Source: a virus | Direction: 5' to 3' (one strand) | Virus record (IMG/VR): IMGVR_UViG_3300020171_000091 | Coordinates: 1-32,135 of that record | Length of the DNA stretch: 32,135 nucleotides | Shown here: in pieces, positions 4,852-30,496 of the stretch | How the letters are laid out: every line of letters starts with the position of its first letter | Position numbering within the stretch: position 1 is the stretch's first letter | Program-made: the position numbers and the translations under genes | Notes under the pieces: model-generated | Databases searched by the model: none | Told to the model about the DNA's origin: nothing | What the model saw: only the letters and a program-made list of their open reading frames with translations

Positions 4852-5001
4852 CTATTTGCGGCGTGGAACCATCCCATGCTCGACGCCATAGAGCAATCGA
4901 AGTGCGGCTCTTGCCGTCTCGGTATTCTGGCAGCGTTGTTTGATAATCCACTTGCCGTTCTTCTTGTGATAGATTACGTTGCCCTTAATTTTATATGGCA
5001 C
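4852..5001 (-). CDS. Small basic phage protein (49 aa), GTG start
   Basis: The product reads MPYKIKGNVIYHKKNGKW, then IIKQRCQNTETARAALRLLY and a short basic tail. Phages and prophages commonly carry 45-50-aa proteins of the form YrvkGNxVxxKkxGkW, followed by a helix with TAxxAxxxLxxL. This one matches that plan. The GTG start overlaps the end of the portal gene by 11 nt, with a G-rich stretch just upstream as a weak ribosome site. The role is unknown. Its position between portal and scaffold suggests late expression. Confidence 0.7.
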   Translation of the reverse strand: MPYKIKGNVIYHKKNGKWIIKQRCQNTETARAALRLLYGVEHGMVPRRK

Positions 5002-6934
5002 TTGGCCCCCCCAGTCCCGGCCCCTTATCAATGGACATGGTGCCCGGTTGCGACGGTATTCCCAGCTCTTTAGGTGCCGATCCCCTCGCCCCGACCATCA
5101 TCTGTTGAGACAGAAGTCGTTCCTCTTCCTCTCGCTGGAAACTTTCATGTTGTAGGGAATGCGCTCCCACGGCCTGTTTACGCGGGTCGGTAGCGGGTAG
5201 CATCCGAATCTCCGGTGACTTGCGGAGTCGATCAAGAACCTCAAGGTGTATCTTGTGGTTGTCATACTTCTCCGCCTCCACCCGTTTTCCAACTTTCAAC
5301 TGAGCATTTTCGGCGATGGCGTTTTCCTCATCGAGAATCGTCGGATCAATACGAATGGCCTGTGGGCCGATCTGCAGCATGGAGATAATCGTCCGTCTAT
5401 CTCGCGGATCCTGGGGATTCAATATGCCCAACTTCACCATATCGAAAGTAATTGCCCGTTGTGTTTGTTTCCCCTCGGAGAAGGATGGCAGATGGATAAT
5501 GAGGTCGAAGTCGCGGTTAAACTTAGCCGCCTTGAAAAATCGCACCTTATGTTCCGAATACTCGCCGAAGATGGAAATAAACCGTTTATCCGCCTGGAAT
5601 TGCTGACAATTCAAGAGCCGCAACTTCCCCACCGCGGCCAGGGATAAGTCATGGTTCGCGGCAATCGGGATCAAGTCCGAATCATCCAACGCCTTCCTGA
5701 TAGACAGGGCGTAGCCGGATGCATCCGGTGGGCCGCCACCCTCGGAGACTTGGCGGATGGAACTGGAAATGTCCATGCCCTGTGAAATAACGGGCAGAAC
5801 CTGTATCAATTCAGCGGGCATCTTGTCCAACTCCAGCTTATACGGTTGCTCACCATGTGGCCCGGGCATAAAAACGTGCCTCGCCCCGGGTTGCAGCATA
5901 TTCTTCTTGCCCTCTTCGGATATGTCCACGTTTCCCGGGATGAGAACGGGTGAACCGATAAGTTTCTTCTTACCGTCCTGCAACACCTGTGAGATGATGG
6001 AGTTATACACCTTATTCAGGCCCCGGAAATCCTCGATGAACGACTTGGCGGCGAAGCGACCGGGCAAGAGAATATCTTGGAAGGGGACTAACGGCAGAAG
6101 ATTGTGGGAGTAGGGGTACGTCCAGCTCTTTTCTTTCTTGTCCTTCTTCTTGGCATCCGAGGATTCAAGTATCTTGTCCCGCGCCATCCACAAAATCTTC
6201 CCTTCTGGGGTATCTGGGTTCGGTTTCTCCCAGTACCGATACACCGCATATCGGTTATAGGTATGGTAAGTAGACCCCTTCTCAAGCAACTGATACAACC
6301 TTGCTTCCAGCGTGTCCATTTCCGCGTCTGGTTTCCACTCATCGGGCACGTCGAAGCCGGTTAGCCTCTTGATCTCTTCTTTGGATAGATAGTATTTGGT
6401 CAAGAACCAATTAACTTCATCGAACTCTTCAATGCCACTGGGCAGGAGGATCCGGTCAGGATGCCAGAGTTTTGTGTATTCCTGATTCGTTGTCTTGTCC
6501 CATCCTTCTTCCCAGAAATAATCGCCCGCGATGGACGCGCCGGTAATAGCCTTGGTAATCTTCCGACGATCTTGACCGCGGATGTAGGAGTAGAGTAGGT
6601 ATTGTTCGGCCAATTCCGCCGCCTGAATATCAGCATCCTCGGCCGTGGCGGGAATGACCTTAACAATCAGTTCATTCTGCAGGAGCTTGCCCACCCGGGT
6701 ACGCAGTTTCGACCCGACGAAATTCACGGTCTCGCGGGTAATCCACGGATGTTCGGAATCCTGCAATGCTTCGTTCTTAATTTCTTTCCTGTCCGAGCGG
6801 ACATGAATCCAATGCTCACCGATGGCGAAGGCGTAGTTCTCGTAGCGAATCTTCGCCAGGTAGTCGCGGTAATCACTCTGGGCGGCGAGTTCGTCCCGGA
6901 TCCGTTGTAGGTAGAAGTCGTTATCTCTTGCCAT
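4991..6934 (-). CDS. Portal protein
   Basis: The 647-aa product has the size and position expected for a phage portal (the DNA entry ring of the head). It has a helical N-terminus with YENYAFAIGEHW and RETVNFVGSKLRTRVGKL, a DYFWEEGWD core segment, and ILLPGRFAAKSFIEDFRGLNKVYNS near the middle. The segment KKLIGSPVLIPGNVDISEEGKKN and a long C-terminal helical part with HLEVLDRLRKSPEIR follow. These features are typical of P22-type portals. The ATG chosen overlaps the upstream gene's stop by 14 nt. A TTG nine bases earlier (6943) is possible, and neither has a strong Shine-Dalgarno site, so translation probably relies on coupling. Confidence 0.85.
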   Translation of the reverse strand: MARDNDFYLQRIRDELAAQSDYRDYLAKIRYENYAFAIGEHWIHVRSDRKEIKNEALQDSEHPWITRETVNFVGSKLRTRVGKLLQNELIVKVIPATAEDADIQAAELAEQYLLYSYIRGQDRRKITKAITGASIAGDYFWEEGWDKTTNQEYTKLWHPDRILLPSGIEEFDEVNWFLTKYYLSKEEIKRLTGFDVPDEWKPDAEMDTLEARLYQLLEKGSTYHTYNRYAVYRYWEKPNPDTPEGKILWMARDKILESSDAKKKDKKEKSWTYPYSHNLLPLVPFQDILLPGRFAAKSFIEDFRGLNKVYNSIISQVLQDGKKKLIGSPVLIPGNVDISEEGKKNMLQPGARHVFMPGPHGEQPYKLELDKMPAELIQVLPVISQGMDISSSIRQVSEGGGPPDASGYALSIRKALDDSDLIPIAANHDLSLAAVGKLRLLNCQQFQADKRFISIFGEYSEHKVRFFKAAKFNRDFDLIIHLPSFSEGKQTQRAITFDMVKLGILNPQDPRDRRTIISMLQIGPQAIRIDPTILDEENAIAENAQLKVGKRVEAEKYDNHKIHLEVLDRLRKSPEIRMLPATDPRKQAVGAHSLQHESFQREEEERLLSQQMMVGARGSAPKELGIPSQPGTMSIDKGPGLGGPSAI

Positions 6935-7169
6935 TTTGCTCAATGATGATGATCTTAAACTTGCGCCTCAAACCAATCGCCCCGGAGGTAAGGAGTTTTT
7001 TGAACAATAGATTTTCCGGCAGGTGGATGGTTTCCCCGTCCGTGAATACCCCCGTCCCCCGGTATATCACCTTCGGCTTTGTCGGTTCGGGACGCGGTGG
7101 TTTCGGTGGCGGCGGGACATAACCCGGTGCAAGGCTTCTTGTGTATTCGGCTAATTTAGGTGCGGGCAT
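6921..7169 (-). CDS. Small proline-rich protein upstream of portal
   Basis: This is an 82-aa protein with a Pro-rich segment (residues about 15-35, PPPPKPPRPEPTKPK). It is followed by a short beta-type domain containing YRGTGVFTDGETIHLPENL and a basic, Ile-rich end. Its ATG overlaps the preceding gene's stop as TAATG, and a GAGGGGGAA site precedes it. It is not recognised. It is probably a late accessory protein coupled to portal translation. Confidence 0.65.
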   Translation of the reverse strand: MPAPKLAEYTRSLAPGYVPPPPKPPRPEPTKPKVIYRGTGVFTDGETIHLPENLLFKKLLTSGAIGLRRKFKIIIIEQNGKR

Positions 7170-7960: not shown

Positions 7961-9337
7961 CTATAATCCTAAAATCTCAGCGTACTGATTCTTGCGCTGT
8001 CCCTGTTTCTCGCGCATGATCATTTCCCGGTATGCCCGTTGTGCATCCGTAACTTCTATCCCCTCGCCCAGGGGGATTGCCGCAGCTTGACGAGGTAAAT
8101 GGCTGGTGATGGCGTAGCGTCGGGCGTCGTGGGTGTGGTTATATTTATCCACCGGCGTATTGTTGGAAGAACTCAACCGTTTATCCTCGTCGGCGAAGTG
8201 ATACTCCCCGAACTCCACGACGGAGTGGGGGCAGGTTTCGGCGCAGACCATCAACAAGGGCAGCCCATCCAGTTCGTTGGTATTCATCAATCCCGCCACC
8301 CGTTGGATCCCGAGCATCAAATCCCGAAAGGAGGCGGGGACGACGTTGAGTCCTCGTTTTTGACAGGAGTAAATCCATTCCGAGCCGGACGGATCCGCGT
8401 AGAAGACGCTGATGTTGTTCTTCCTCTGGAATAGGGTAATGTGATCGACAAGACTATCAAAGTCCTGTTTCGTCGCATAGAACTCGTCGAAATTTATCCA
8501 TCTTCGTCCCACCCGTCCCAGGGCTTCAATCACAAACGGATCGCCGTATCCCCAATCTATCCCCGCGATGGCCTCATCAAACTGGGGTATCGGTTTCTTC
8601 CAGAGGTGTTTGTCTTGTAAGTCGTAGACCAAGCCTTCAAAAGACACGAACTGAGCGTCAAGTTCCTGGGCGGCGAAACGAGGATCATAGGCTTCGCGCA
8701 AGGCATGAATCTCAAGTGGGTCAAGGTAGGTGTTGCTGTCAATGGGGGCGTTGACGACGCAATATTCGTTCTTAACCCTAAACCCCTCCGGTGTCCGCTT
8801 GTCCTTCGTTGCCTCAGTGTACCACCGTCGATACAGCCAGTTCTTGCCCCGGGGCGTCGTGGTGCCGATGATTGACCCCTTGGTGCTTAGAATACGGCCA
8901 AGGAGGATGTCAAAGCATTCCTCGGAGATCATGGATATTTCATCCACCCATATCCAATCCAGTTCCGGCCCCCGTAAGTGGTCGGGTTTCTCCGCAGTCT
9001 TGACCTGCACCTTGAAGCCGTTGACCAATTCTATTGTCCGCTCACTGACCTTGCGGTCACGGATGAGCAATGGATTGATGTAGCGTAAAAAAGCCCCTTC
9101 CGGGACAATACTCATGGGGAAGGTAGGGCTTACTATCCACCCCATCCCACACCCCTTGCCCTTCTTCCACTTCATCGCCTTGCGTTCCGTCTCATGTGCC
9201 CCCCCAACGGTCTTTCCGCTCCTGACGCCCCCGATGAATAACGGGAACCGGTAGTGTTCACACGCCTTCTTGAACTCCGTTTGCGGGCCGGTGCGGATGT
9301 ACTTCTCGGAAAAAAGAGGGACTTCTAACTGCTTCAT
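7961..9337 (-). CDS. terL: Terminase large subunit
   Basis: The 458-aa product is the packaging motor. The ATPase part has a Walker A motif GGVRSGKT (about residues 36-43) and a Walker B motif LDWIWVDEIS, followed by the coupling motif GTTTPRGKNWLYRRW. The C-terminal nuclease has AGIDWGYGDP, then FYADPSG, then DKYNHTHDARRYA. These supply the acidic residues of an RNase H-like fold used to cut concatemers. The start was placed at the ATG that overlaps the upstream stop (ATGA), giving MKQLEVPLFSEK. A longer reading of the frame to 9439 has no ribosome site and overlaps the upstream gene. The next genes downstream lead to the portal, the docking partner. Confidence 0.93.
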   Translation of the reverse strand: MKQLEVPLFSEKYIRTGPQTEFKKACEHYRFPLFIGGVRSGKTVGGAHETERKAMKWKKGKGCGMGWIVSPTFPMSIVPEGAFLRYINPLLIRDRKVSERTIELVNGFKVQVKTAEKPDHLRGPELDWIWVDEISMISEECFDILLGRILSTKGSIIGTTTPRGKNWLYRRWYTEATKDKRTPEGFRVKNEYCVVNAPIDSNTYLDPLEIHALREAYDPRFAAQELDAQFVSFEGLVYDLQDKHLWKKPIPQFDEAIAGIDWGYGDPFVIEALGRVGRRWINFDEFYATKQDFDSLVDHITLFQRKNNISVFYADPSGSEWIYSCQKRGLNVVPASFRDLMLGIQRVAGLMNTNELDGLPLLMVCAETCPHSVVEFGEYHFADEDKRLSSSNNTPVDKYNHTHDARRYAITSHLPRQAAAIPLGEGIEVTDAQRAYREMIMREKQGQRKNQYAEILGL

Positions 9338-9585
9338 ATCTGAGCTATCTTGGGAAACTTCTTCTTCCACCGTTTGTAGTCTAACCCCCCGGAATTGACA
9401 ATGATCCCGAAGGCTCGAACCTTCGTCCGCGAATAACACTCCATGCTACCCCGGGGTACCCGGCAAGTCTCACATCTCCGGCAACGCTCCCCAAACAACA
9501 TCGACCTCTTCTCCCCAGGGCACCATACCCACTTACCCCCCTTCCCGGCCACTCCCTCCCCAAAACCAGAGAAAGCCTTACGCAT
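9334..9585 (-). CDS. Small Cys-rich protein coupled to large terminase
   Basis: The 83-aa product contains WVWCPGEK, then CRRCETC, then MECYS. These five cysteines are spaced to bind one zinc ion. The C-terminal half, AFGIIVNSGGLDYKRWKKKFPK, is basic. Its TGA overlaps the terminase ATG, and a GAGGG site precedes its own start. It may be a DNA-binding accessory of packaging, but this is inferred from position only. Confidence 0.65.
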   Translation of the reverse strand: MRKAFSGFGEGVAGKGGKWVWCPGEKRSMLFGERCRRCETCRVPRGSMECYSRTKVRAFGIIVNSGGLDYKRWKKKFPKIAQI

Positions 9586-9783: not shown

Positions 9784-9995
9784 AACTCCTCAAATTCCAG
9801 AAATAACGACTTTTGAGGGTGGCACTGGCGAGAAAACTCAACCCTATAAACCCGCCCCTCCGTACCCCCACCCAGTCCCCGACACCGTACCCCCCTACCC
9901 CCCGTGTCAATTGTGATACTACCCATAGAACGCACACAGGAGCGCAACGGCGCATAGGCCATTGACTGATAATAGGTTATATGTATACCTGTCAC
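9780..9995 (-). CDS. Small unknown protein in terminase operon
   Basis: The frame has 71 codons from a GTG that overlaps the end of the small terminase gene (GTGA), and its stop overlaps the next start (ATGA). These paired overlaps are the main reason to accept it. The central part is unusually Gly/Arg-rich (IDTGGRGVRCRGLGGG) because the DNA here is strongly purine-biased. The end, RVYRVEFSRQCHPQKSLFLE, looks more protein-like. No family was recognised. Confidence 0.5.
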   Translation of the reverse strand: MTGIHITYYQSMAYAPLRSCVRSMGSITIDTGGRGVRCRGLGGGTEGRVYRVEFSRQCHPQKSLFLEFEEL

Positions 9996-10402
9996 TCTTT
10001 TTTGTCCTTTTCCTTTGGTTGGGTGGGGGTTGCGGGTGTATCCTTATCATCTTCATTAAACGAAATGGATATATCTTGTTTTATCTGCTGTTTCTCTCCG
10101 GGACGGTAGGAGCCACCGAGGTAAAGACCGAGATCGAGCGCATGATCTGACGACTTTTCACCGAGATCGAGCTTTAAGCCCAACGCCTTTCTACCCTTCA
10201 TGTCGAGAATCTTGTCAGAGATACCTGCAACGCGGCAAATGATTTCGCGCCAATCCTCTGTTTTTTCCCAATCATACAGCACCCCGTCGTCAACCTCGAA
10301 CCCGTTCACCTTCAACAGCTCCGCAATCTTGTAGCACGGGAGCGTGTACCAACCCATCCGACCAATCATCTCGATGATCTGTACCCGATCTTTACGTTTC
10401 AT
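9992..10402 (-). CDS. terS: Terminase small subunit (putative)
   Basis: This is a 136-aa protein, a usual size for small terminases. The N-terminal 55 residues are helical and read like a DNA-binding domain (RVQIIEMIGRMGWYTLPCYKIAELLKV, then DDGVLYDWEK). The middle has ICRVAGISDKILDMKGRKALGLKL, suitable for an oligomerisation helix. The tail is charged and Pro/Lys-rich. It lies just upstream of the large terminase, separated by small genes only. The role would be recognition of the packaging site on concatemers. No diagnostic motif proves this, so the call relies on size, helix pattern and order. Confidence 0.6.
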   Translation of the reverse strand: MKRKDRVQIIEMIGRMGWYTLPCYKIAELLKVNGFEVDDGVLYDWEKTEDWREIICRVAGISDKILDMKGRKALGLKLDLGEKSSDHALDLGLYLGGSYRPGEKQQIKQDISISFNEDDKDTPATPTQPKEKDKKE

Positions 10403-10569: not shown

Positions 10570-10782
10570 TTAATCACTGCTCACCGGATCCTCGTTCATG
10601 CGGTCAATAGCAAGGGCGGAGAGGGGAAAGGTCAGGGTCCTCATAGTTGTGTTGGTAACATTGTTTATTTCCCATCCCGCCTGTACCTCTCGCCCATCTT
10701 CTATCTTGATCATGTAGCGCCAAGAATTCACGGTGACCCCGGGCCGGCGACTGATTTTTAGATGCGTAGCCTCTAACCTCAT
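10570..10782 (-). CDS. Small unknown protein downstream of HNH gene
   Basis: The product has 70 residues and is likely beta-rich, with WRYMIKIEDGREVQAGWEINN and a TLTFPLSALAIDRM segment. Its ATG overlaps the HNH stop (ATGA), and a GGGGGAA site sits in the end of that gene. Function unknown. Between it and the next gene (10539-10569) nothing was seen. Confidence 0.6.
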   Translation of the reverse strand: MRLEATHLKISRRPGVTVNSWRYMIKIEDGREVQAGWEINNVTNTTMRTLTFPLSALAIDRMNEDPVSSD

Positions 10783-11222
10783 CTCAAAATTCCCCCACCA
10801 TGCGCTTTTCTATGACATCGGCCACAAAGTGTCGCGAGATTGTCTGGGTTGCAATTCTGCTTGTTGGCGTCAAGGTGATGTACTGCAAGAGCCTTTTCGC
10901 CTTGCGGCTCACCGCACATCCGGCATCGATAGTGGTCACGTTCGCGTATGCTACGTCGAAGCGTTGCCGTCCAGTCGACCGAATAGGGCTGAAAAGTGAT
11001 ACCGCCTTTCCAGTTGTGATTTCTCTCACCACGCTTTGCTTGTGCAATTTTTGCTTTTGCTTCAGGGGTATGCTTAAAACCTAATGCGTGCCGCTTACTC
11101 TTCATCGCCTGGCTAATTTTTTGGATCGCTTCTGGTGAGTGCTTATGGCCGAGGAAATATTTCTTGCCTTTCATCGCTCGACTGATTTTTTGCCGAGCTT
11201 CGGGTGAATGTCTATGGCCCAT
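10779..11222 (-). CDS. NUMOD3-HNH homing-type endonuclease (copy 1)
   Basis: The product has 147 aa. The first 60 residues are three tandem NUMOD3-type DNA-binding motifs (GHRHSPEARQKIS, GHKHSPEAIQKIS, GFKHTPEAKAKIA). A linker (RNHNWKGGI) and an HNH nuclease follow. The nuclease has CRMC and CGRC pairs binding structural zinc, catalytic VHHLD, and the final LATLCGRCHRKAH. Such genes are mobile, cutting alleles that lack them and spreading by repair. It sits at the upstream end of the packaging operon, next to the candidate origin, with stop and start overlaps on both sides. No intron signatures were seen. Confidence 0.88.
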   Translation of the reverse strand: MGHRHSPEARQKISRAMKGKKYFLGHKHSPEAIQKISQAMKSKRHALGFKHTPEAKAKIAQAKRGERNHNWKGGITFQPYSVDWTATLRRSIRERDHYRCRMCGEPQGEKALAVHHLDANKQNCNPDNLATLCGRCHRKAHGGGILR

Positions 11223-11527
11223 TAAAATTCACCCCACAAACATATATGTTTATTAGTCTTCTTCTTAGTCTTAGTATTAGTCTTAGTATGTACCTGCCCA
11301 AGGCACTCCTTTGGAAAGCCCAAGGCAATCCCGCGGCACTCCCAGGGCATTCCCGAATAGTTGCTAATAAGTGGGAGTTGTGGGATATTCACGCGGGGAA
11401 AAAAGTTATCCACATTGATTTCGTACCCTCTTGGTCGGCACATTGTTTTGACATTTTTTGCACGCGAACTCGGGTCATGAAGGGGGCCGCGAGGGGTTTT
11501 TGTGGCAAGAATTAACGCGCCGGGCAT
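11222..11527 (-). CDS. Doubtful reading frame across origin-like region
   Basis: The frame has 101 codons, and its TAA overlaps the HNH start (TAATG). The start overlaps the previous gene by 16 nt, and no good ribosome site was seen. The second half contains GMPWECRGIALGFPKECLG, then a Lys/Thr repeat (TKTNTKTKKKTNK). This resembles the low-complexity linker of phage replication initiators, and a comparable segment (ECPRNARSVPKE) occurs in the initiator at 17761. It may be a decayed piece of such a gene, or only a reading of the iteron repeats. Low confidence that a protein is made. Confidence 0.3.
   Translation of the reverse strand: MPGALILATKTPRGPLHDPSSRAKNVKTMCRPRGYEINVDNFFPRVNIPQLPLISNYSGMPWECRGIALGFPKECLGQVHTKTNTKTKKKTNKHICLWGEF
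11302..11356 (+). repeat. Five 11-bp phased iteron-like repeats
   Basis: The units start at 11302, 11313, 11324, 11335 and 11346. Their cores are GGCACTCC, GGAAAGCC, GGCAATCC, GGCACTCC and GGCATTCC. The exact 11-bp step places each core on the same face of the helix, as expected for cooperative binding of an initiator or regulator. The second unit is degenerate. Confidence 0.6.
11406..11414 (+). promoter_or_regulatory. Perfect DnaA box
   Basis: TTATCCACA matches the strongest bacterial DnaA box consensus exactly. One such 9-mer can occur by chance, but its place beside the iterons and AT-rich tract makes function plausible. Confidence 0.5.
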
Positions 11528-11709: not shown

Positions 11710-11781
11710 TCATAACTAATATGGTGGGTGTTTTTCCACTTTCGACGCTAACCCCCACAACTACGCGAGTTAAATGTTGTT

Positions 11782-11810
11782 TTGGCAAAAATGCGATAAG
11801 TCCCTATAAT
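11782..11810 (+). promoter_or_regulatory. Sigma70-type promoter P1, rightward
   Basis: TTGGCA (11782-11787) and a consensus TATAAT (11805-11810) are separated by 17 bp, the optimal spacing. It points toward the early genes. The stretch 11710-12037 has no credible gene. A frame at 11721-11948 lacks a ribosome site and protein-like composition. Confidence 0.6.
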
Positions 11811-11832
11811 ATCAATAGTTCATTTTATCGCG

Positions 11833-11852
11833 GCGATAACCTCTATAATATC
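11833..11852 (+). promoter_or_regulatory. Second -10-like copy (P2), part of a direct repeat
   Basis: GCGATAAC followed by CTATAATATC repeats the P1 segment GCGATAAG and CTATAATATC 39-40 bp downstream. The -10 TATAAT (11844-11849) is perfect, but the -35 region (TTCATT, 19-bp spacing) is poor. It may be an auxiliary promoter or a duplicated regulator site around the -10 element. Confidence 0.4.
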
Positions 11853-11948
11853 GACGTGGCGGGCAACGTGGGCGGAGCGTTGAAATATCGGGCGTTATGG
11901 CGTTTCGGGAATGGATTTGAAAGTATTTTCAACAAAACAGCAGTTTAA

Positions 11949-11976
11949 TCGCTATTGTTTCAGGTAGTTATAGCGA
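11949..11976 (+). promoter_or_regulatory. Inverted repeat, likely operator
   Basis: TCGCTAT (11949-11955) and ATAGCGA (11970-11976) form perfect 7-bp arms around a 14-bp spacer. They lie 25 bp upstream of the strongest early promoter. Centre-to-centre spacing is 21 bp, two helical turns, which suits a dimeric regulator. No repressor gene is visible in the window. Confidence 0.45.
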
Positions 11977-12000
11977 CCTGTTATATTATAGCACGTCATG

Positions 12001-12031
12001 TTGACATACGTTAGGCGGAAAACCGTATAAT
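12001..12031 (+). promoter_or_regulatory. Main early promoter (P3), rightward
   Basis: Both hexamers are perfect sigma70 consensus: TTGACA (12001-12006) and TATAAT (12026-12031). The 19-bp spacer is longer than ideal, which often makes a promoter depend on activation or supercoiling. The start of transcription should fall near 12038, exactly where the leader hairpin begins. Confidence 0.65.
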
Positions 12032-12037
12032 AGGACA

Positions 12038-12124
12038 TGGAGCGCACAAGACCTCAGCAACCAACTTTTACCCGCCCCCTGTCACCGTGTCCTGTCCCAT
12101 CCAACAAGGTCAGTGTGTGCTCCA
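12038..12124 (+). promoter_or_regulatory. Long 5'-leader hairpin of the early transcript
   Basis: TGGAGCGCACA (12038-12048) pairs with TGTGTGCTCCA (12114-12124), 11 bp with one G-U wobble. After a small internal loop, GACCT (12050-12054) pairs with AGGTC (12107-12111). The 16-bp stem starts at the predicted +1 and ends about 27 nt before the first gene's ribosome site (GGGAGACC). It could protect the mRNA 5' end or act as a processing or antitermination signal. Confidence 0.55.
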
Positions 12125-14023: not shown

Positions 14024-14827
14024 ATGAAAACAATTATCGTCAAAACACAACAAGATTGGGATGCAATACCCATTGAATCCCAAGAAGAAAGACTGATTGA
14101 AATCAGGGGAACGGAATGTATATACATCAAACAAAACCCCAACAACAGCACGGCGACGCTCCACGGCAACAGCTCAGCGACGCCCTACGACAACAGCACG
14201 GCGACGCTCTACGGCAACAGCACGGCGACGCTCCACGGCAACAGCACGGCGACGCTCTACGACAACAGCACGGCGACGCTCTACGGCAACAGCTCAGCGA
14301 CGCTCCACGGCAACAGCACGGCGACGCTCCACGGCAACAGCACGGCGAGGCTCTGCGACAACAGCACGGCGATTGTCTGGTCGGCGAAGTCGGTCAAAAA
14401 ATATGGGCGTTACGCCGCTATCGTCAAAAAACAGCCCATCGTCTACCGCAATCTCGCGGATTGGGTATCTACAAATGATTGCACAAAAATCAATGCCTCA
14501 ACCCTCTTACTCTATAAGCGCGTGTCCGAGAGGTTCTTGACGCAAGAGGAGACAAACAATCAAACCGAATGGGTGGTCGGGAAAACCCTAATCCACTCCG
14601 ACTATAATCCCGCTCAAAGTGAATGCGGTGCGGGTCAATTTCACGCCTGCGCCAAACCGTTTTTTTGTGACCAATTCCGGGACATCCGTGGCGATAAGTA
14701 TATAGCCCTTGCCGTCAAAATCAAGGACGTTTTTGTGTGGAAAAAGAACCCGTCATATCCTCATAAGATCGCGTTCCGTTCCGGCAAGGTGCTCTACGAA
14801 TGCGACCGAGAAGGGAAAAAGATATGA
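14024..14827 (+). CDS. Octapeptide-repeat protein with DUF7666-like C-terminus
   Basis: The product has 267 aa. After a 40-residue start (KTQQDWDAIP) come ten tandem 8-residue units of type NSTATLYG (residues about 41-120), likely forming a small beta-solenoid. The C-terminal part (about 185-265) has the order VVGKTLIHSDYNPAQSECGAG, FHACAKP, YIALAVKIKDVFVW. This resembles the C-terminal module of phage proteins with short Asn/Ala repeats (DUF7666-type). Cellular role is unknown. The AGAGAGG ribosome site sets the start. Confidence 0.7.
   Translation: MKTIIVKTQQDWDAIPIESQEERLIEIRGTECIYIKQNPNNSTATLHGNSSATPYDNSTATLYGNSTATLHGNSTATLYDNSTATLYGNSSATLHGNSTATLHGNSTARLCDNSTAIVWSAKSVKKYGRYAAIVKKQPIVYRNLADWVSTNDCTKINASTLLLYKRVSERFLTQEETNNQTEWVVGKTLIHSDYNPAQSECGAGQFHACAKPFFCDQFRDIRGDKYIALAVKIKDVFVWKKNPSYPHKIAFRSGKVLYECDREGKKI
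14144..14383 (+). repeat. Ten tandem 24-nt coding repeats
   Basis: Ten units of AACAGCACGGCGACGCTC-YACGRC type encode the octapeptide of the host gene. Units differ mainly at one or two codons (Tyr/His, Gly/Asp, Thr/Ser). Near-identity at DNA level points to recent expansion by slippage or recombination. All three forward frames stay open across the array. Confidence 0.95.
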
Positions 14828-15418: not shown

Positions 15419-15606
15419 CGGTGACATACGAAGGACTCAAGACATTTATGGAAACGGTGGGGGCAACATGGTGCCTGTTGATAGGCACGCATGGCGAGCA
15501 TTGGGTAATCAAGTTCCATGGTTCCGTCCTCTATGACGATAAATTGTGGAAATCGTATCTGCGCATGTATAGCTGGGAAAATATCCAGTCCATACTCACA
15601 TGGTAA
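15415..15606 (+). CDS. Small unknown early protein
   Basis: The product has 63 aa, MTVTYEGLKTFMETVGATWC, then GTHGEHWVIKFHGSVLYDD and a Trp-rich end. It has a strong GGAAAGGAG site. It is not recognised. It may have been inserted in front of the recombination genes. Confidence 0.6.
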   Translation: MTVTYEGLKTFMETVGATWCLLIGTHGEHWVIKFHGSVLYDDKLWKSYLRMYSWENIQSILTW

Positions 15607-15620
15607 AAAAGGAGAACGAT

Positions 15621-16520
15621 ATGGAAAAGGTTGACCGCACGAAATTCCTGGGTGGAAGTGATATTGCCGCTGCAATCGGCATGAATCGCTGGCATTCTCC
15701 CCTGATGTTATGGGCACAAAAAACGGGAGAATTGCCGATAGAGATACCCGACAACGAGGCGATGGAGTGGGGCCGGGAGCTTGAGGATTCCGTTGCTAAG
15801 GGATTCACGCGCAAAACTGGATTTGAAGTCCGCCGCACCCCACAGAACTATGTCCACCCAAAGTATCCCTATTTCCGCTGCCAGGTGGATCGACTCCTGA
15901 CGGGGACAGACGAGTTGCTCGAAGTCAAAACGACGAATGCATGGCAGGCAAAGGAATGGGAAGGCGAAGAAATACCGCAAGAATATATTCTCCAAGTCAT
16001 GTGGCAGTTGGGCATCACCAAACGGTCAGTCGGCTGGATTGCCGTTCTAATCGGCGGGCAGAAATTCCGCTACAAGAAAATCCCGTTCGACAAGGTGCTG
16101 TTCGACGATATGATAGAGAAGGCATTACTCTTCTGGCAATGCGTTATCGACAAAACACCGCCGATGGCCGACGGGCTTGACAATCCGATTATGGTCGAAC
16201 TCTATCCCAAGCCAACCAACAAAAGCATCCAAGAAGTCGAGGAAATGGATACGGCAATCGGCCACAGGCAGGAGTTGAAGATGCACGGGAAAGAAATCGA
16301 GAAATCACTCGATGAAGTCGAGGCGTTACTCAAACAGAAGATCGGCGAATCACTTGGCCTGAAAACCGTGAAGTACACGGTTATGTGGAATCGGGAAGCC
16401 AAGAACGGCTTAAACGAAAAGAGACTCAAGGAAGCACATCCGGATATCTACACCCAATTCTATGAACGAGGCTATAAGCGCGTTTTGCGGGTGAAGCTTA
16501 ACGACAAAAAGGAGAAATGA
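15621..16520 (+). CDS. YqaJ-type viral recombinase exonuclease
   Basis: The product has 299 aa from the ATG after AAAGGAG. The start, MEKVDRTKFLGGSDIAAAIGMN, is the hallmark of YqaJ/lambda-exonuclease relatives. Motifs include EWGRELED (about 49-56), CQVD with Asp90, and LLEVKTT with Glu101 and Lys103 (the D-ExK nuclease core). A QVMWQLGITK segment follows near 130. The C-terminal third is a charged helix (MDTAIGHRQELKMHGKEIEK) and a basic end. It degrades one strand of linear DNA to give single strands for the annealase encoded directly downstream, with an ATGA overlap. Replication, repair and host-independent recombination are likely roles. Confidence 0.9.
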   Translation: MEKVDRTKFLGGSDIAAAIGMNRWHSPLMLWAQKTGELPIEIPDNEAMEWGRELEDSVAKGFTRKTGFEVRRTPQNYVHPKYPYFRCQVDRLLTGTDELLEVKTTNAWQAKEWEGEEIPQEYILQVMWQLGITKRSVGWIAVLIGGQKFRYKKIPFDKVLFDDMIEKALLFWQCVIDKTPPMADGLDNPIMVELYPKPTNKSIQEVEEMDTAIGHRQELKMHGKEIEKSLDEVEALLKQKIGESLGLKTVKYTVMWNREAKNGLNEKRLKEAHPDIYTQFYERGYKRVLRVKLNDKKEK

Positions 16521-17662
16521 TGGCAGATATAGCAACAGTCAAAAAAGCTACGGCATCGACGCAGATGACTTCCGTCGAAGCCATGATCAAGAAAGCGGCC
16601 AGTGACCTGGGCGAGGCGTTACCGGCACACATGAACTCGGAACGGCTGGTCAGGATTGCGCTGACGACTATACGGACCAACCCCGAGCTGATGAAGTGTA
16701 CTCAGGCCAGCTTGCTTGGCGCTCTGTTTCAATCGGCTTTCTTGGGCCTTGAGCCGAATATCGAAGGACAGGCCTATATTCTACCCTTCAACAATCGGCG
16801 CAAGATCGACGGCAACTGGATCACGGTCAAGGAAGCGCAATTCCAGATCGGCTACAAGGGGTATGTCCAACTCTTTCACCGGCACAAGTCGGCCATATCG
16901 CTCATGTTTGAGGCCGTCTACGAACATGATCATTTTGATTACGAATACGGTACTGCTGGCTATCTGCGTCATAAGCCAGCCGAGAAGGACCGGGGTGAGG
17001 TCCGGGGATTCTACGCGGTCGCCAAGCTCTCCAATAGTGGTACGACTTTCAAGTATATGTCAAAAGATGAATGCCTCGAGCACGGGCGACTCTACTCAAA
17101 ATGCTTTGACAAGCAGACTGGCAAATTCTATGATCATACTCCCTGGGCATCCCACCCCGACGCCATGTGCCTCAAGACCGTCCTGATGCAATTGATGAAG
17201 TTGCTACCCAAGTCCATCGAAATCCAAAAGGCGATCGCCTCAGATGAAAGTATCAAGACAAAAGTGGCAATCGATATGTCTACTGTGCCGGATGAGGCGG
17301 TATGGGATGAACCGGAAGTCTCGACGGAAAAGGTCGAAACAAAACCCCCGACCGAAAATGGCAAAACGCCGGACGAGGGCGACTTAGCCGCCGACGCTAA
17401 CGGCAAACCCCCGGTGGAAACTCCGATCAACCTGGAAGCTGAAACGGCCCCCAAGAAAAAATACTGCGACCCCAATATGGAATTTGAAAAGCTCAATACC
17501 ATTCTCGGTATCTTGTTGACTGCTTTGGGCAAACGTCCATTGAAAGAGCGCGGGTTGCTTGCCGAGAAAATCAGCAGGGTCAAAACCGGTGATCCGACCA
17601 AAGACCTTGAGGCTAAGATCGACATCCTGCATGAAGCAGGCATAACCGAAGCAAAGGTATAA
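16517..17662 (+). CDS. recT: RecT-family single-strand annealing protein
   Basis: The product has 381 aa. The conserved RecT core spans about residues 20-235. It includes NPELMKCTQASLLGALFQSAFLGLEPN, QAYILPFNN, AQFQIGYKGYVQLFHR, VYEHDHFDYEYG, then WASHPDAMCLKTVLMQLMKLLPKS. The family anneals complementary single strands and pairs with the exonuclease next to it. The last 140 residues are an extension. It has an acidic Pro/Glu-rich linker, then a helical module (LNTILGILLTALGKRPLKERG), longer than in typical RecT of about 270-300 aa. The first ATG overlaps the upstream stop, and the second ATG (16520) is better spaced from AAGGAG. Confidence 0.92.
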   Translation: MMADIATVKKATASTQMTSVEAMIKKAASDLGEALPAHMNSERLVRIALTTIRTNPELMKCTQASLLGALFQSAFLGLEPNIEGQAYILPFNNRRKIDGNWITVKEAQFQIGYKGYVQLFHRHKSAISLMFEAVYEHDHFDYEYGTAGYLRHKPAEKDRGEVRGFYAVAKLSNSGTTFKYMSKDECLEHGRLYSKCFDKQTGKFYDHTPWASHPDAMCLKTVLMQLMKLLPKSIEIQKAIASDESIKTKVAIDMSTVPDEAVWDEPEVSTEKVETKPPTENGKTPDEGDLAADANGKPPVETPINLEAETAPKKKYCDPNMEFEKLNTILGILLTALGKRPLKERGLLAEKISRVKTGDPTKDLEAKIDILHEAGITEAKV

Positions 17663-17760: not shown

Positions 17761-18543
17761 ATGCCCTATAGAAACATCGTCTTCGTCAAGTTGGAAAAAC
17801 GCCTACTTAATGATCCGCGTTGGTATATGTTAAGCGAGGCGGCTCAATTGAACTTTATCCGCTTCATGCTCTTGGCCGCCGAAACCTACAATCGCATCCC
17901 GAAAAACCTCGAAGCGATACGCAAGGCATTCAAAACTGAGCAGGATTTGACCACCCTCGAAAAGACCATAAAAGAGATCAGGGATAACTTCCCGAAGTTC
18001 AAAGAGAACAAGAAACTCTACTATTTCGCTGACTTCGAGACCAAGACTAACTATATCAGGGAATGCCCCAGGAATGCCCGGAGCGTGCCGAAAGAAGTTG
18101 CAGAAGGAAATCAAGGGAAAGAAAAAGAGAACAAGAAAGAATGGATTGCGCGGTTTGAAAAGTTATGGCCTGATTATCCGCGACGCGATGGGAAAAAAGA
18201 AGCATTGCGACATTTCTTGGCAACGGTGAAGACGGATGGAGACTGGGCTAAAATACAGAAGGCACTCGCCAACTTCAAGCGCTATGTTTTGCGTATGGGT
18301 TTTGACGAGAAACATATCAAGACAGCCAAAACGTGGTTCAACAATTGGCAGGACTGGGTAGACTACCAAGAGCCACAGTCTACCATCGCGACGGTAACAC
18401 CGGAGGCTCTCTACCTCTGCCCTCTCTGCAATAAACGATTCAGGGATTCAAGAAAAAACGAACCTCTGACTTGCCCGCTTTGCAGGGGTACGCCGAAAAT
18501 ATCCGATCAATCGTTTGCCCTGATCAAGGAGGACAAACCATGA
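17761..18543 (+). CDS. Phage replication initiation protein with zinc ribbon
   Basis: The product has 260 aa. Residues 1-95 form a helical, winged-helix-like part (RWYMLSEAAQLNFIRFMLLAAETYNRIPKN, then LYYFADFET). A charged linker follows, with ECPRNARSVPKE and KEKENKK. Residues about 127-203 (RFEKLWPDYPRRDGKKEALRHF, ALANFKRYV, KTAKTWFNNWQDWVDY) match the C-terminal module of phage replisome organisers. The last 40 residues add a zinc ribbon with CPLC at 220-223 and CPLC at 238-241. It probably binds the phage origin and recruits host helicase. The AAAGG site is 9 nt before the ATG. Confidence 0.8.
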   Translation: MPYRNIVFVKLEKRLLNDPRWYMLSEAAQLNFIRFMLLAAETYNRIPKNLEAIRKAFKTEQDLTTLEKTIKEIRDNFPKFKENKKLYYFADFETKTNYIRECPRNARSVPKEVAEGNQGKEKENKKEWIARFEKLWPDYPRRDGKKEALRHFLATVKTDGDWAKIQKALANFKRYVLRMGFDEKHIKTAKTWFNNWQDWVDYQEPQSTIATVTPEALYLCPLCNKRFRDSRKNEPLTCPLCRGTPKISDQSFALIKEDKP

Positions 18544-26621: not shown

Positions 26622-27184
26622 AAGCACCACCCTGCACCGATGCGTGGTTCAATCCATCCAGGCACATTCGGGCCAAGAAGCCCATAGCCCATGATCTTGA
26701 AATGTTTGAGAGAGGCGCCGATAGAAAGAACCCCAATCGGGTTAAGGGCATTTAGGCTGGGCTTGAGGTTTATTTCGACGCCCCCAAGAATTCTGAACGG
26801 TGAAGATTGCTTGACCGGGATGTCGAGTGAATAGGGCATAGGTTTCGTTTCGATAGAGGCTGAATATAGGATGCCCCGATAAACAATAGAGTCTGAAATT
26901 GGGACAAAACACATCTTTTCTTGTATCAAAAATGGAATGTCCACACTATATACTTTAGATCGTACGGGGATTTGACCCAATGGAGTTTCTTTTGTAATTA
27001 TTATGGTATCATGAACTATATCCGTAATGATAGTTGTATCAGTCTTAAACTTTGTGATTATTATCGTGTCTTTCGTTTGGATGGTAATAGTTTGAATTCC
27101 CGGTTTGTGAAAATAGAGCGTACCCAGAATACCAATGATAATCCCGGCAACGAGGATAACAAACAAAACTTTCAGTTCTTTCAC
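26618..27184 (-). CDS. Membrane-anchored beta-rich protein, possibly spanin-like
   Basis: The product has 188 aa. The GTG start is set by GGGAGGTCAAC at 5-6 nt and overlaps the HNH stop. MKEL is followed by one membrane helix (about 5-24, VLFVILVAGIIIGILGTLYF). Repeated Thr/Ile strands follow (TITIQTKDTIIITKFKTDTT, IITDIVHDTIIIT), and a C-terminal 60 residues with GVEINLKPSLNALNPIG and GAGWCL. The anchor and periplasmic body in a lysis region suggest a spanin-like or envelope-spanning role, unproven. A longer frame to 27238 is not supported by a ribosome site. Confidence 0.65.
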   Translation of the reverse strand: MKELKVLFVILVAGIIIGILGTLYFHKPGIQTITIQTKDTIIITKFKTDTTIITDIVHDTIIITKETPLGQIPVRSKVYSVDIPFLIQEKMCFVPISDSIVYRGILYSASIETKPMPYSLDIPVKQSSPFRILGGVEINLKPSLNALNPIGVLSIGASLKHFKIMGYGLLGPNVPGWIEPRIGAGWCL

Positions 27185-27819
27185 GTTGACCTCCCGTTGA
27201 TTTTCCATGAATGTATTTTCATGTGACAAGAACGACATAGTGTTATTCCATTATCAATACAAAATCTTAATTCCGGGAATTCCGAAAATAATTTAAGATG
27301 ATGAGCTATTATATTCCCCCGCCCACATATTTTCCTACACAACCTACATGTCCATTGATCTTTTTTGTAAACTTCCATGGCCCATATTCGATATTCTAAA
27401 CTTTTTCGTATAAGGTGATTTTTATTACCAATACCGCCCCTCCATTGATGATTTTTTTCGCCCTTTTGGGCGTTGCTTTTTTTACGTCGATGTTCTAATG
27501 AAAATATCCGACCCACCAATGCTTCACTTGTTCTTCGTCGAGCTTCAAGAGAACGGCGTTTCCCATGGTTTGCTATACTTATTTTATGTTTCGTTATATC
27601 TGAATGTTTTTTACCAAAAAAATGATTTTTTTCGCCCATCCTACTTTCGCTCATTTTTTGACGTGCTTCCAGGGATTGTTTTTTTCCCAGCATATTAGAA
27701 GGAAGCCCCTTGTGAGACTGACTCATTTTCTGTCTTGTTTCAAGGGAATGATGTTTACCCCTGTTTGCATTACTTAATTTTTGCCGCAATTCCTCGGAAC
27801 ACCTTTGACCTTTTCTCAT
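27181..27819 (-). CDS. NUMOD3-HNH homing-type endonuclease (copy 2)
   Basis: The product has 212 aa. About six tandem NUMOD3-like motifs fill residues 1-125 (HHSLETRQKMSQSH, KQSLEARQKMSES, KRRSLEARRRTSEA and others). A linker (EKNHQWRGGI) precedes the HNH nuclease with CRLC and CRSC pairs, AHHLKLF and LCRSCHMKIH. Its DNA is much richer in A+T than its neighbours, a sign of transfer. It has its own consensus promoter. Its last codons contain the ribosome site of the next gene. An upstream TTG (27843) could add eight residues. Confidence 0.88.
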   Translation of the reverse strand: MRKGQRCSEELRQKLSNANRGKHHSLETRQKMSQSHKGLPSNMLGKKQSLEARQKMSESRMGEKNHFFGKKHSDITKHKISIANHGKRRSLEARRRTSEALVGRIFSLEHRRKKSNAQKGEKNHQWRGGIGNKNHLIRKSLEYRIWAMEVYKKDQWTCRLCRKICGRGNIIAHHLKLFSEFPELRFCIDNGITLCRSCHMKIHSWKINGRST

Positions 27820-27874
27820 ATTCTCGTTATATCTTTGTTGCAATTAAAACAATTTCGGATAATCATATAAATAT

Positions 27875-27902
27875 ATTATATATAGAAACCAAAGTTTGTC
27901 AA
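27875..27902 (-). promoter_or_regulatory. Consensus promoter of HNH copy 2
   Basis: On the minus strand, TTGACA (27902-27897) and TATAAT (27880-27875) are separated by 16 bp, both exact consensus. The 5' leader to the ATG would be about 45-50 nt. The surrounding AT-rich segment (27844-27918) holds no gene. Confidence 0.7.
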
Positions 27903-27918
27903 GTTATTTGTCGAAACG

Positions 27919-29563: not shown

Positions 29564-30496
29564 CTATAAACCAGACGCGATTAGCCACCAAAAACTTCCG
29601 TCACAGATCAACGTCCCTCCGCCCGGCCCGGCAATCGTTACGTCCGCCCCGGTGTTGCATTTGATGTCTTGGTTGCCAGACGATTCGTTGTCCTCCAGCA
29701 CGACATTATTCGCCCCTGAATTATAGAAGTGTAAAATCTGTCCAGCCACACCGTCGATGAAACCGCCGATTGTTATTGACCCGCCTGCGGTGTTGACCGC
29801 CATGACCGAAGCGTTGGCAACGGACACGGTATCACTTGTGCCTATTACGGCGAAGGTGCGGATAACGCCCTTGAAAACATTCCTCACTGCCACCGTTCCA
29901 GAATCTCGACCAGCATTATTTATGTATAATTTCACTGTGCCGATTGTGGTTGTACCTGTATAGAAAGTATACTCACCATTTTGCATCAATAATGCTGCCG
30001 TTAGATTTGCATTAGTGTTTCCCCTAACCCAAGCTGCTCCATTGTTATATAAATTATCCCCCAGATATAATGTTCCCTGAGTTGAAGAGACTGTTCGACC
30101 ACCAACGAAGGCATTACTTTTGGAGGTTCCGATTCCGCCCAGGGACACCATGCCAGTATCACCAGTCGCACAGCTGAAAGTGGCTTGTGGATAATTGGGA
30201 GAGGCAACGATTAGTGTTTTGTATACCCTTGCCGTATCCGCCGCCTGAACACGAGAGGAATCGTAGGTGGAAAGTAAATTACTTCTGACTGTAATTGAAG
30301 TACCCGATTTAGCACGGAGGACGTTGGTGAGGGTGGAGTCGGAAACGACGGTGGAACAGCGAGCCATAATTGCAGTCAGGGAATCAAAGGTGGATGTGCC
30401 GACGTGCCGACCGTTGACATCGTAGTCGTCCACCCAGTCAGCATGGACAAAACCGATGAAACCCAGTAAGGTTAGGATTGTCAATAGTTTTTTCAT
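29564..30496 (-). CDS. Exported fibre-like protein (310 aa)
   Basis: The signal peptide is MKKLLTILTLLGFIGFVHA|DWVDD. The mature part is rich in Thr, Ser, Gly and Asn with many short beta strands (TLYLGDNLYNNGAAWVRGNT, YTFYTGTTTIGTVKLYINN, SITIGGFIDG). It closes with GQILHFYNSGANNVVLEDNE and GGGTLICDGSFWWLIAS, a cap-like end resembling that of the 652-aa protein near the left edge. A fibre or adhesin role is likely. The export signal is the unusual part. An AGGAGG site precedes it. Confidence 0.65.
   Translation of the reverse strand: MKKLLTILTLLGFIGFVHADWVDDYDVNGRHVGTSTFDSLTAIMARCSTVVSDSTLTNVLRAKSGTSITVRSNLLSTYDSSRVQAADTARVYKTLIVASPNYPQATFSCATGDTGMVSLGGIGTSKSNAFVGGRTVSSTQGTLYLGDNLYNNGAAWVRGNTNANLTAALLMQNGEYTFYTGTTTIGTVKLYINNAGRDSGTVAVRNVFKGVIRTFAVIGTSDTVSVANASVMAVNTAGGSITIGGFIDGVAGQILHFYNSGANNVVLEDNESSGNQDIKCNTGADVTIAGPGGGTLICDGSFWWLIASGL

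Follow-up and report, generated by a model that had tools for sequence, protein, structure and literature searches.

A candidate second replication origin ahead of the terminase genes of an uncultivated phage, matching an iteron array in its initiator gene

The window analyzed here is the entire 32,135 bp of an uncultivated virus record that IMG/VR classes as 'linear', and it carries two related iteron arrays: five units with a period of 11 bp beside an AT-rich tract ahead of the terminase genes, and a shorter array inside the phage's own replication initiator gene. The two arrays match one another, and elements of this kind recur in two settings only, initiator-type genes and the gaps before terminase genes, with conservation at the level of the DNA. 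We consider it likely that the segment at 11238–11353 is a copy, outside the initiator gene, of the origin element to which the phage initiator would bind, and that it serves either as a second origin or as a replication fork barrier, as in phage SPP1.

Genome organization

The structural genes of the window are transcribed leftwards and include those for a probable small terminase subunit, TerL and a P22-like portal, and the early genes are transcribed rightwards and include those for a YqaJ-type exonuclease, RecT and the replication initiator; the intervening gap contains the extragenic array (Table 1). The window has no DNA similarity to known phages, its TerL returned no relatives when used as a query, and its LPD29 protein has two relatives, both of which lack arrays. 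The cumulative GC skew was proposed in the initial annotation as a check on an origin here; its minimum does lie near 11.5–13 kb, but this coincides with the point where transcription diverges and is therefore uninformative.

Table 1. Features of the window that are discussed in the text.
Feature	Coordinates	Strand	Remarks
Portal protein, P22-like	4991..6943	-	
Terminase large subunit	7961..9439	-	
Probable terminase small subunit	9992..10402	-	Assigned by position alone; no family match
NUMOD3-HNH homing-type endonuclease	10779..11222	-	Between the element and the terminase genes
101-aa open frame across the array	11222..11527	-	Judged non-coding
14 bp palindrome AAACATATATGTTT	11238..11251	.	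One of two that long in the record
AT-rich tandem tract (ACTAAG)n	11251..11289	-	Candidate DNA unwinding element; Tandem Repeats Finder, 6/12 bp unit
Box GGTACATAC	11286..11294	-	Between iterons and hexamer tract; compared by eye
Extragenic iteron array, five GGNNNNCC units	11302..11353	-	Period exactly 11 bp
TTATCCACA, DnaA-box-like	11406..11414	+	Judged incidental
YqaJ-type exonuclease and RecT annealing protein genes	15600..17662	+	Upstream of the initiator gene
Replication initiator gene, 260 aa	17761..18543	+	PHROG replication initiation proteins, best 1.7e-10
Intragenic array, GGAATGCC x2 plus degenerate AGCGTGCC	18060..18089	+	Period 11 bp

The element was initially described as lying next to a homing endonuclease, with its parts within 180 bp of a doubtful coding region. 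An HNH gene is indeed present beside it, but the adjacency is incidental, there being no such gene at the element in the contigs L108, L131, L132 and L145 described below, and the HNH gene is probably an insertion between the element and the terminase genes. The doubt about coding was well placed, in that the 101-residue minus-strand frame matches no family and its codon score is neutral, although this score alone decides nothing because that of the accepted HNH gene is just as low.

Several other segments of the window are of note in their own right. The region at 11779–12050 looks like an operator-rich early promoter region, with two copies of TATAATATC after GCGATAA motifs and an inverted repeat of TTATCGCGGCGATAA; visual inspection adds a third promoter-like TTGACA-TATAAT ahead of position 12037. 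A 24 bp coding tandem repeat of 9.6 copies (14143–14372) is found in a gene with a weak match to the trimerisation domain of T4 gp5. Finally, an AT-rich island at 26989–27908, in which the GC content falls to 37%, contains a second NUMOD3 gene (27181–27843) and was probably acquired.

The extragenic element

The units of the extragenic array read GGAATGCC, GGAGTGCC, GGATTGCC, GGCTTTCC and GGAGTGCC on the minus strand, corresponding on the plus strand to GGCACTCC at 11302, GGAAAGCC at 11313, GGCAATCC at 11324, GGCACTCC at 11335 and GGCATTCC at 11346. A run of at least four GGNNNNCC units at period 11 appeared in none of 300 shuffles of the whole window, and when any period from 8 to 30 bp was allowed, the combination of five units and five invariant columns was reached in none of 400 second-order shuffles. 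Towards the terminase genes the iterons are followed in order by the GGTACATAC box, the AT-rich hexamers and the palindrome, which is the layout of L108 and its group at the same genomic place. By eye, the box has counterparts in GGTACGTCC (L131 and L145), GGATAGTCC (L108) and GGTACGTAC (the initiator gene of G329), and inverted repeats likewise lie beyond the hexamers of L108 and L131. Only two 50 bp stretches of the record are less stable than the hexamer tract (z 3.7).

The five phased repeats, the palindrome, the AT-rich tract and TTATCCACA that the initial annotation combined into a DnaA-assisted iteron origin are thus all present, but the part assigned to DnaA is not supported by the relatives. 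A second copy of TTATCCACA occurs at 30186, and TTATCCACA is weak evidence because this copy number is about that expected by chance for a 9-mer in a record of this size. Allowing up to one mismatch, TTATCCACA is absent within 400 bp of the arrays in L108, L131, L132, L133 and L011, and the same search finds one single-mismatch site near the L116 array. We rate a role of DnaA as low, since TTATCCACA is not common to the arrays of the relatives.

A matching array within the initiator gene

Across the whole record, GGNNNNCC pairs 11 bp apart are found four times in the extragenic array, once in the initiator gene (18060–18078) and nowhere else, and GGAATGCC occurs exactly three times, once in the extragenic array and twice in the initiator gene. 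Local alignment of the two arrays (AACTAT..GGGAATGCCC) gives a score of 32 that was reached in none of 1000 shuffles; in a further comparison the extragenic array scores 32 against the window's own gene (0 of 500 shuffles) and just 14–21 against five other initiator genes. The extragenic array is the stronger of the two, with more units and a clearer unwinding tract, and after the intragenic array there is a purine-rich stretch where relatives have hexamers. The initial annotation noted that in phages of this kind the initiator gene often contains the origin; an array is present in that gene here too, and the window therefore shows a two-site arrangement.

The DNA of the intragenic array encodes a linker that is predicted to be disordered (residues 96–117). 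The preceding N domain is modeled by AlphaFold as helices with a two-strand wing as its last part, and a fold search of the PDB gives weak matches (best E 0.76, none with E ≤ 0.001), many of which are winged-helix regulators.

The N-terminal 99 residues of the initiator are present in L011 (74% identity) and L116 (62%), and were later recognized in L139, L140, L144 and G329. The initiator label of L139, L140 and L144 rests on the N domain, and PHROGs match none of them. In all seven N-domain initiator genes, the window's included, GGNNNNCC repeats are found between +299 and +356 relative to the ATG, so that phased repeats follow the predicted DNA-binding domain as in intragenic origins; they are spaced by 11 or 22 bp, and there are none in the first 270 nt of any of the seven. 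Because the repeats occupy all three codon phases, it is the DNA and not the peptide that is conserved. AT-rich hexamers such as AGATAA adjoin the array in six of the seven genes, the exception being the window's own. In 16 relatives that share the C-terminal domain only there are no runs of three GGNNNNCC units; the array therefore goes with the N-terminal domain, which we predict to bind the GGNNNNCC repeats.

The 41.8 kb contig of G329 is broken within the hexamer repeats of the initiator gene (at the starts of L133 and L136). One end of the contig carries the N-domain part and the other the C-terminal part, and this placing suggests that the G329 genome is circular and that the assembler opened it at its origin.

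The same element ahead of terminase genes in other contigs

A generic search for five-unit arrays identified L108, in which an array and an (AGATAA)n tract occupy a non-coding gap, followed by the gene upstream of TerL, TerL and the portal gene. L131 and L132 (75–76% TerL identity) have four units, a GGTACGTCC box and hexamers in the pre-terminase gap, and in L108, L131, L132 and L145, which form a lineage separate from the window, the element lies directly before the gene upstream of TerL. The contigs compared are all metagenomic and mostly incomplete, and the initiator genes are missing from those of the L108 type. When hexamers beside two units were sought as a motif, ten viral loci were returned, six of them initiator-type genes (L011, L139, L140, L144, L142 and L143) and the other four pre-terminase gaps (L108, L131, L132 and L145). 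The non-coding DNA of L108 aligns with the initiator-gene DNA of L011 with a score of 72 (shuffle maximum 38), and the remote arrays of L108, L131 and L145 align with the gene arrays of L139 and L140 (0 of 500 shuffles). The terminase proteins of the window and L108 are not alignable, and the common position is therefore not a matter of mere close kinship.

In the pre-terminase gaps the number of units varies by whole 11 bp steps, and the GG and CC positions are kept along with these steps while the cores and the number of units change. The initial annotation would have abandoned the origin had relatives varied only at synonymous positions of the minus-strand frame; instead the unit number varies by 11 bp steps in non-coding DNA, and arrays are found in every reading phase. 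In G329 (L133), whose terminase is 84% identical to that of L108, the gap holds fragments of the element only and no hexamers, and the extragenic site is therefore dispensable in this genome; a comparison of its gene site with its remote site is not significant. A second array was not seen in L116 or L144, and among the contigs compared the window alone has strict arrays both inside and outside the initiator gene. The proposal that iterons and an AT-rich tract form a replication element is well supported, both by the relatives and by the array of the initiator gene, which matches the extragenic one, and the earlier interpretation as a whole is upheld in part. We also note that in L133 (8700–9106) the degenerate pre-terminase array is followed by TGTTTCACGTGAAATA, which we take to be close to the bacterial parS consensus.

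Wider searches for 11 bp arrays

A GGRATGCC-specific pattern gave seven matches, near the chance number by our estimate, and BLAST with an idealised repeat gave only Microviridae matches that we judged meaningless. The generic five-unit scan yielded 85 stretches, and 49 of the 72 distinct arrays among them contain at most two different cores, most of these 49 being minisatellite-like. A scan of 300 genomes of the L116 phylum yielded L116 and one marginal match only. Seven of 17 open reading frames over degenerate arrays match PHROG 9474 replication initiation proteins (about 1 of 16 control frames has any initiator match), and L096 provides a further one on the other strand. Degenerate 11 bp GGNNNNCC arrays with other cores are present in other initiator-type genes (L085, L063, L061, L102, L109 and others), often preceding low-complexity linkers, and the 11 bp GGNNNNCC array is possibly a widespread iteron format. 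At L129 4942–5080 (the array is also that of L099) the 11 bp units include GGTTATCCACA, and DnaA-box 9-mers are embedded in the iterons.

Alternative roles of the extragenic element

The array could be an operator at which the initiator regulates the terminase and structural operon as a late switch, with no part in replication. It heads the late operon in both lineages, and replication initiators often autoregulate. We nonetheless regard this as unlikely: the AT-rich hexamers are kept with the array, just as they are in intragenic copies that do not stand at operon heads, and no promoter-like site above chance was found on the minus strand at the array.

A terminase pac site, whose repeats would be bound by the small subunit and be helically phased around its ring, would fit a position directly upstream of the packaging genes in the window, L108, L131, L132 and L145. 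This is improbable, as arrays with hexamers also occur within initiator genes, so that the repeats are not restricted to the terminase region, and the window's array matches its own initiator gene. We give similarly little credence to an inactive relic, left when an initiator gene that once stood before the terminase genes moved away, even though in L144 the initiator gene and the terminase genes point the same way, with the initiator gene about 3.3 kb upstream, and G329 has lost most of the element. No trace of the initiator N domain is found beside any remote array, for which reason a decayed initiator gene is not evident and was rated low; the GG/CC positions and 11 bp steps persist despite the changing cores and unit number, and the window's remote array is stronger than the copy in the gene. 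That the repeats are coding repeats of the 101-residue frame, which is open through the array, or a product of chance is scarcely credible, given that no shuffle reproduces the array, that the frame has neither a family match nor a codon score above neutral, and that four contigs have non-coding counterparts.

Comparison with known origins and proposed function

We return to the preferred reading, an extragenic copy of the initiator-binding origin element. Bacillus phage SPP1 has two origins of similar organization, each with direct repeats and an AT-rich unwinding element, with oriL located within gene 38 and oriR intergenic. Both are bound by the replisome organiser gp38, for which a role at oriR in stalling forks and initiating concatemer synthesis, together with the exonuclease and annealing protein, has been proposed (PMC6316719). 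The likeness of the window to SPP1 lies in the layout of the sites: repeats with an AT-rich region are found at two sites, one in the initiator gene and one outside it (11251–11353), a single initiator is predicted from the array match to serve both, and genes for an exonuclease (YqaJ) and a RecT annealing protein are present. The window differs in that its extragenic site directly precedes the terminase operon, its sites are about 6.7 kb apart compared with about 13 kb in SPP1, and its initiator has no detectable relative in 50,697 phage records.

Other origins share parts of this organization. In phage lambda the iterons of the O gene fall in the linker region, with an AT-rich tract after them, and linker-region repeats with an adjoining AT-rich tract are seen in six of the seven initiator genes here, although the window has 11 bp units, a different core and an additional extragenic copy. 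Phased iterons adjoining an AT-rich tract are also a feature of DnaA-assisted plasmid origins such as those of F and R6K, but the DnaA box is not conserved in the relatives and there is no Rep-type plasmid initiator.

We propose that the N-terminal domain of the 17761–18543 protein would contact the GGNNNNCC iterons from a single side of the helix, as the 11 bp phasing would allow, that the adjacent hexamer tract would serve as the unwinding element, and that the initiator would also bind the shorter array within its own gene. We infer not only this binding and unwinding but also the origin or stalling activity and the choice of primary site. By analogy with SPP1, one site would start theta replication, and the other would be a late origin or fork barrier that triggers the synthesis of concatemers by recombination, using the phage exonuclease and RecT; concatemers would then be made close to the terminase genes, whose products would package them. 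On the same analogy the extragenic element is most likely the second (late) origin or a fork-stalling site like oriR, and the intragenic copy would be the equivalent of oriL.

To our knowledge, two-origin phages are known essentially from SPP1. In a more tentative extension, which we consider possible but doubtful, an extragenic origin copy heads the terminase operon in separate lineages and initiator binding there leads to concatemers and packaging, in which case the coupling would be general and not a peculiarity of SPP1. If this arrangement were demonstrated in uncultivated phages, for whose initiator known phage records contain no detectable relative, the role of the second origin would become open to comparison, the question being whether it is a late start or a fork barrier for the switch to concatemers. 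The signature of an 11 bp GGNNNNCC array followed by hexamers can also be used to locate origins in metagenomic phage genomes from their sequence alone.
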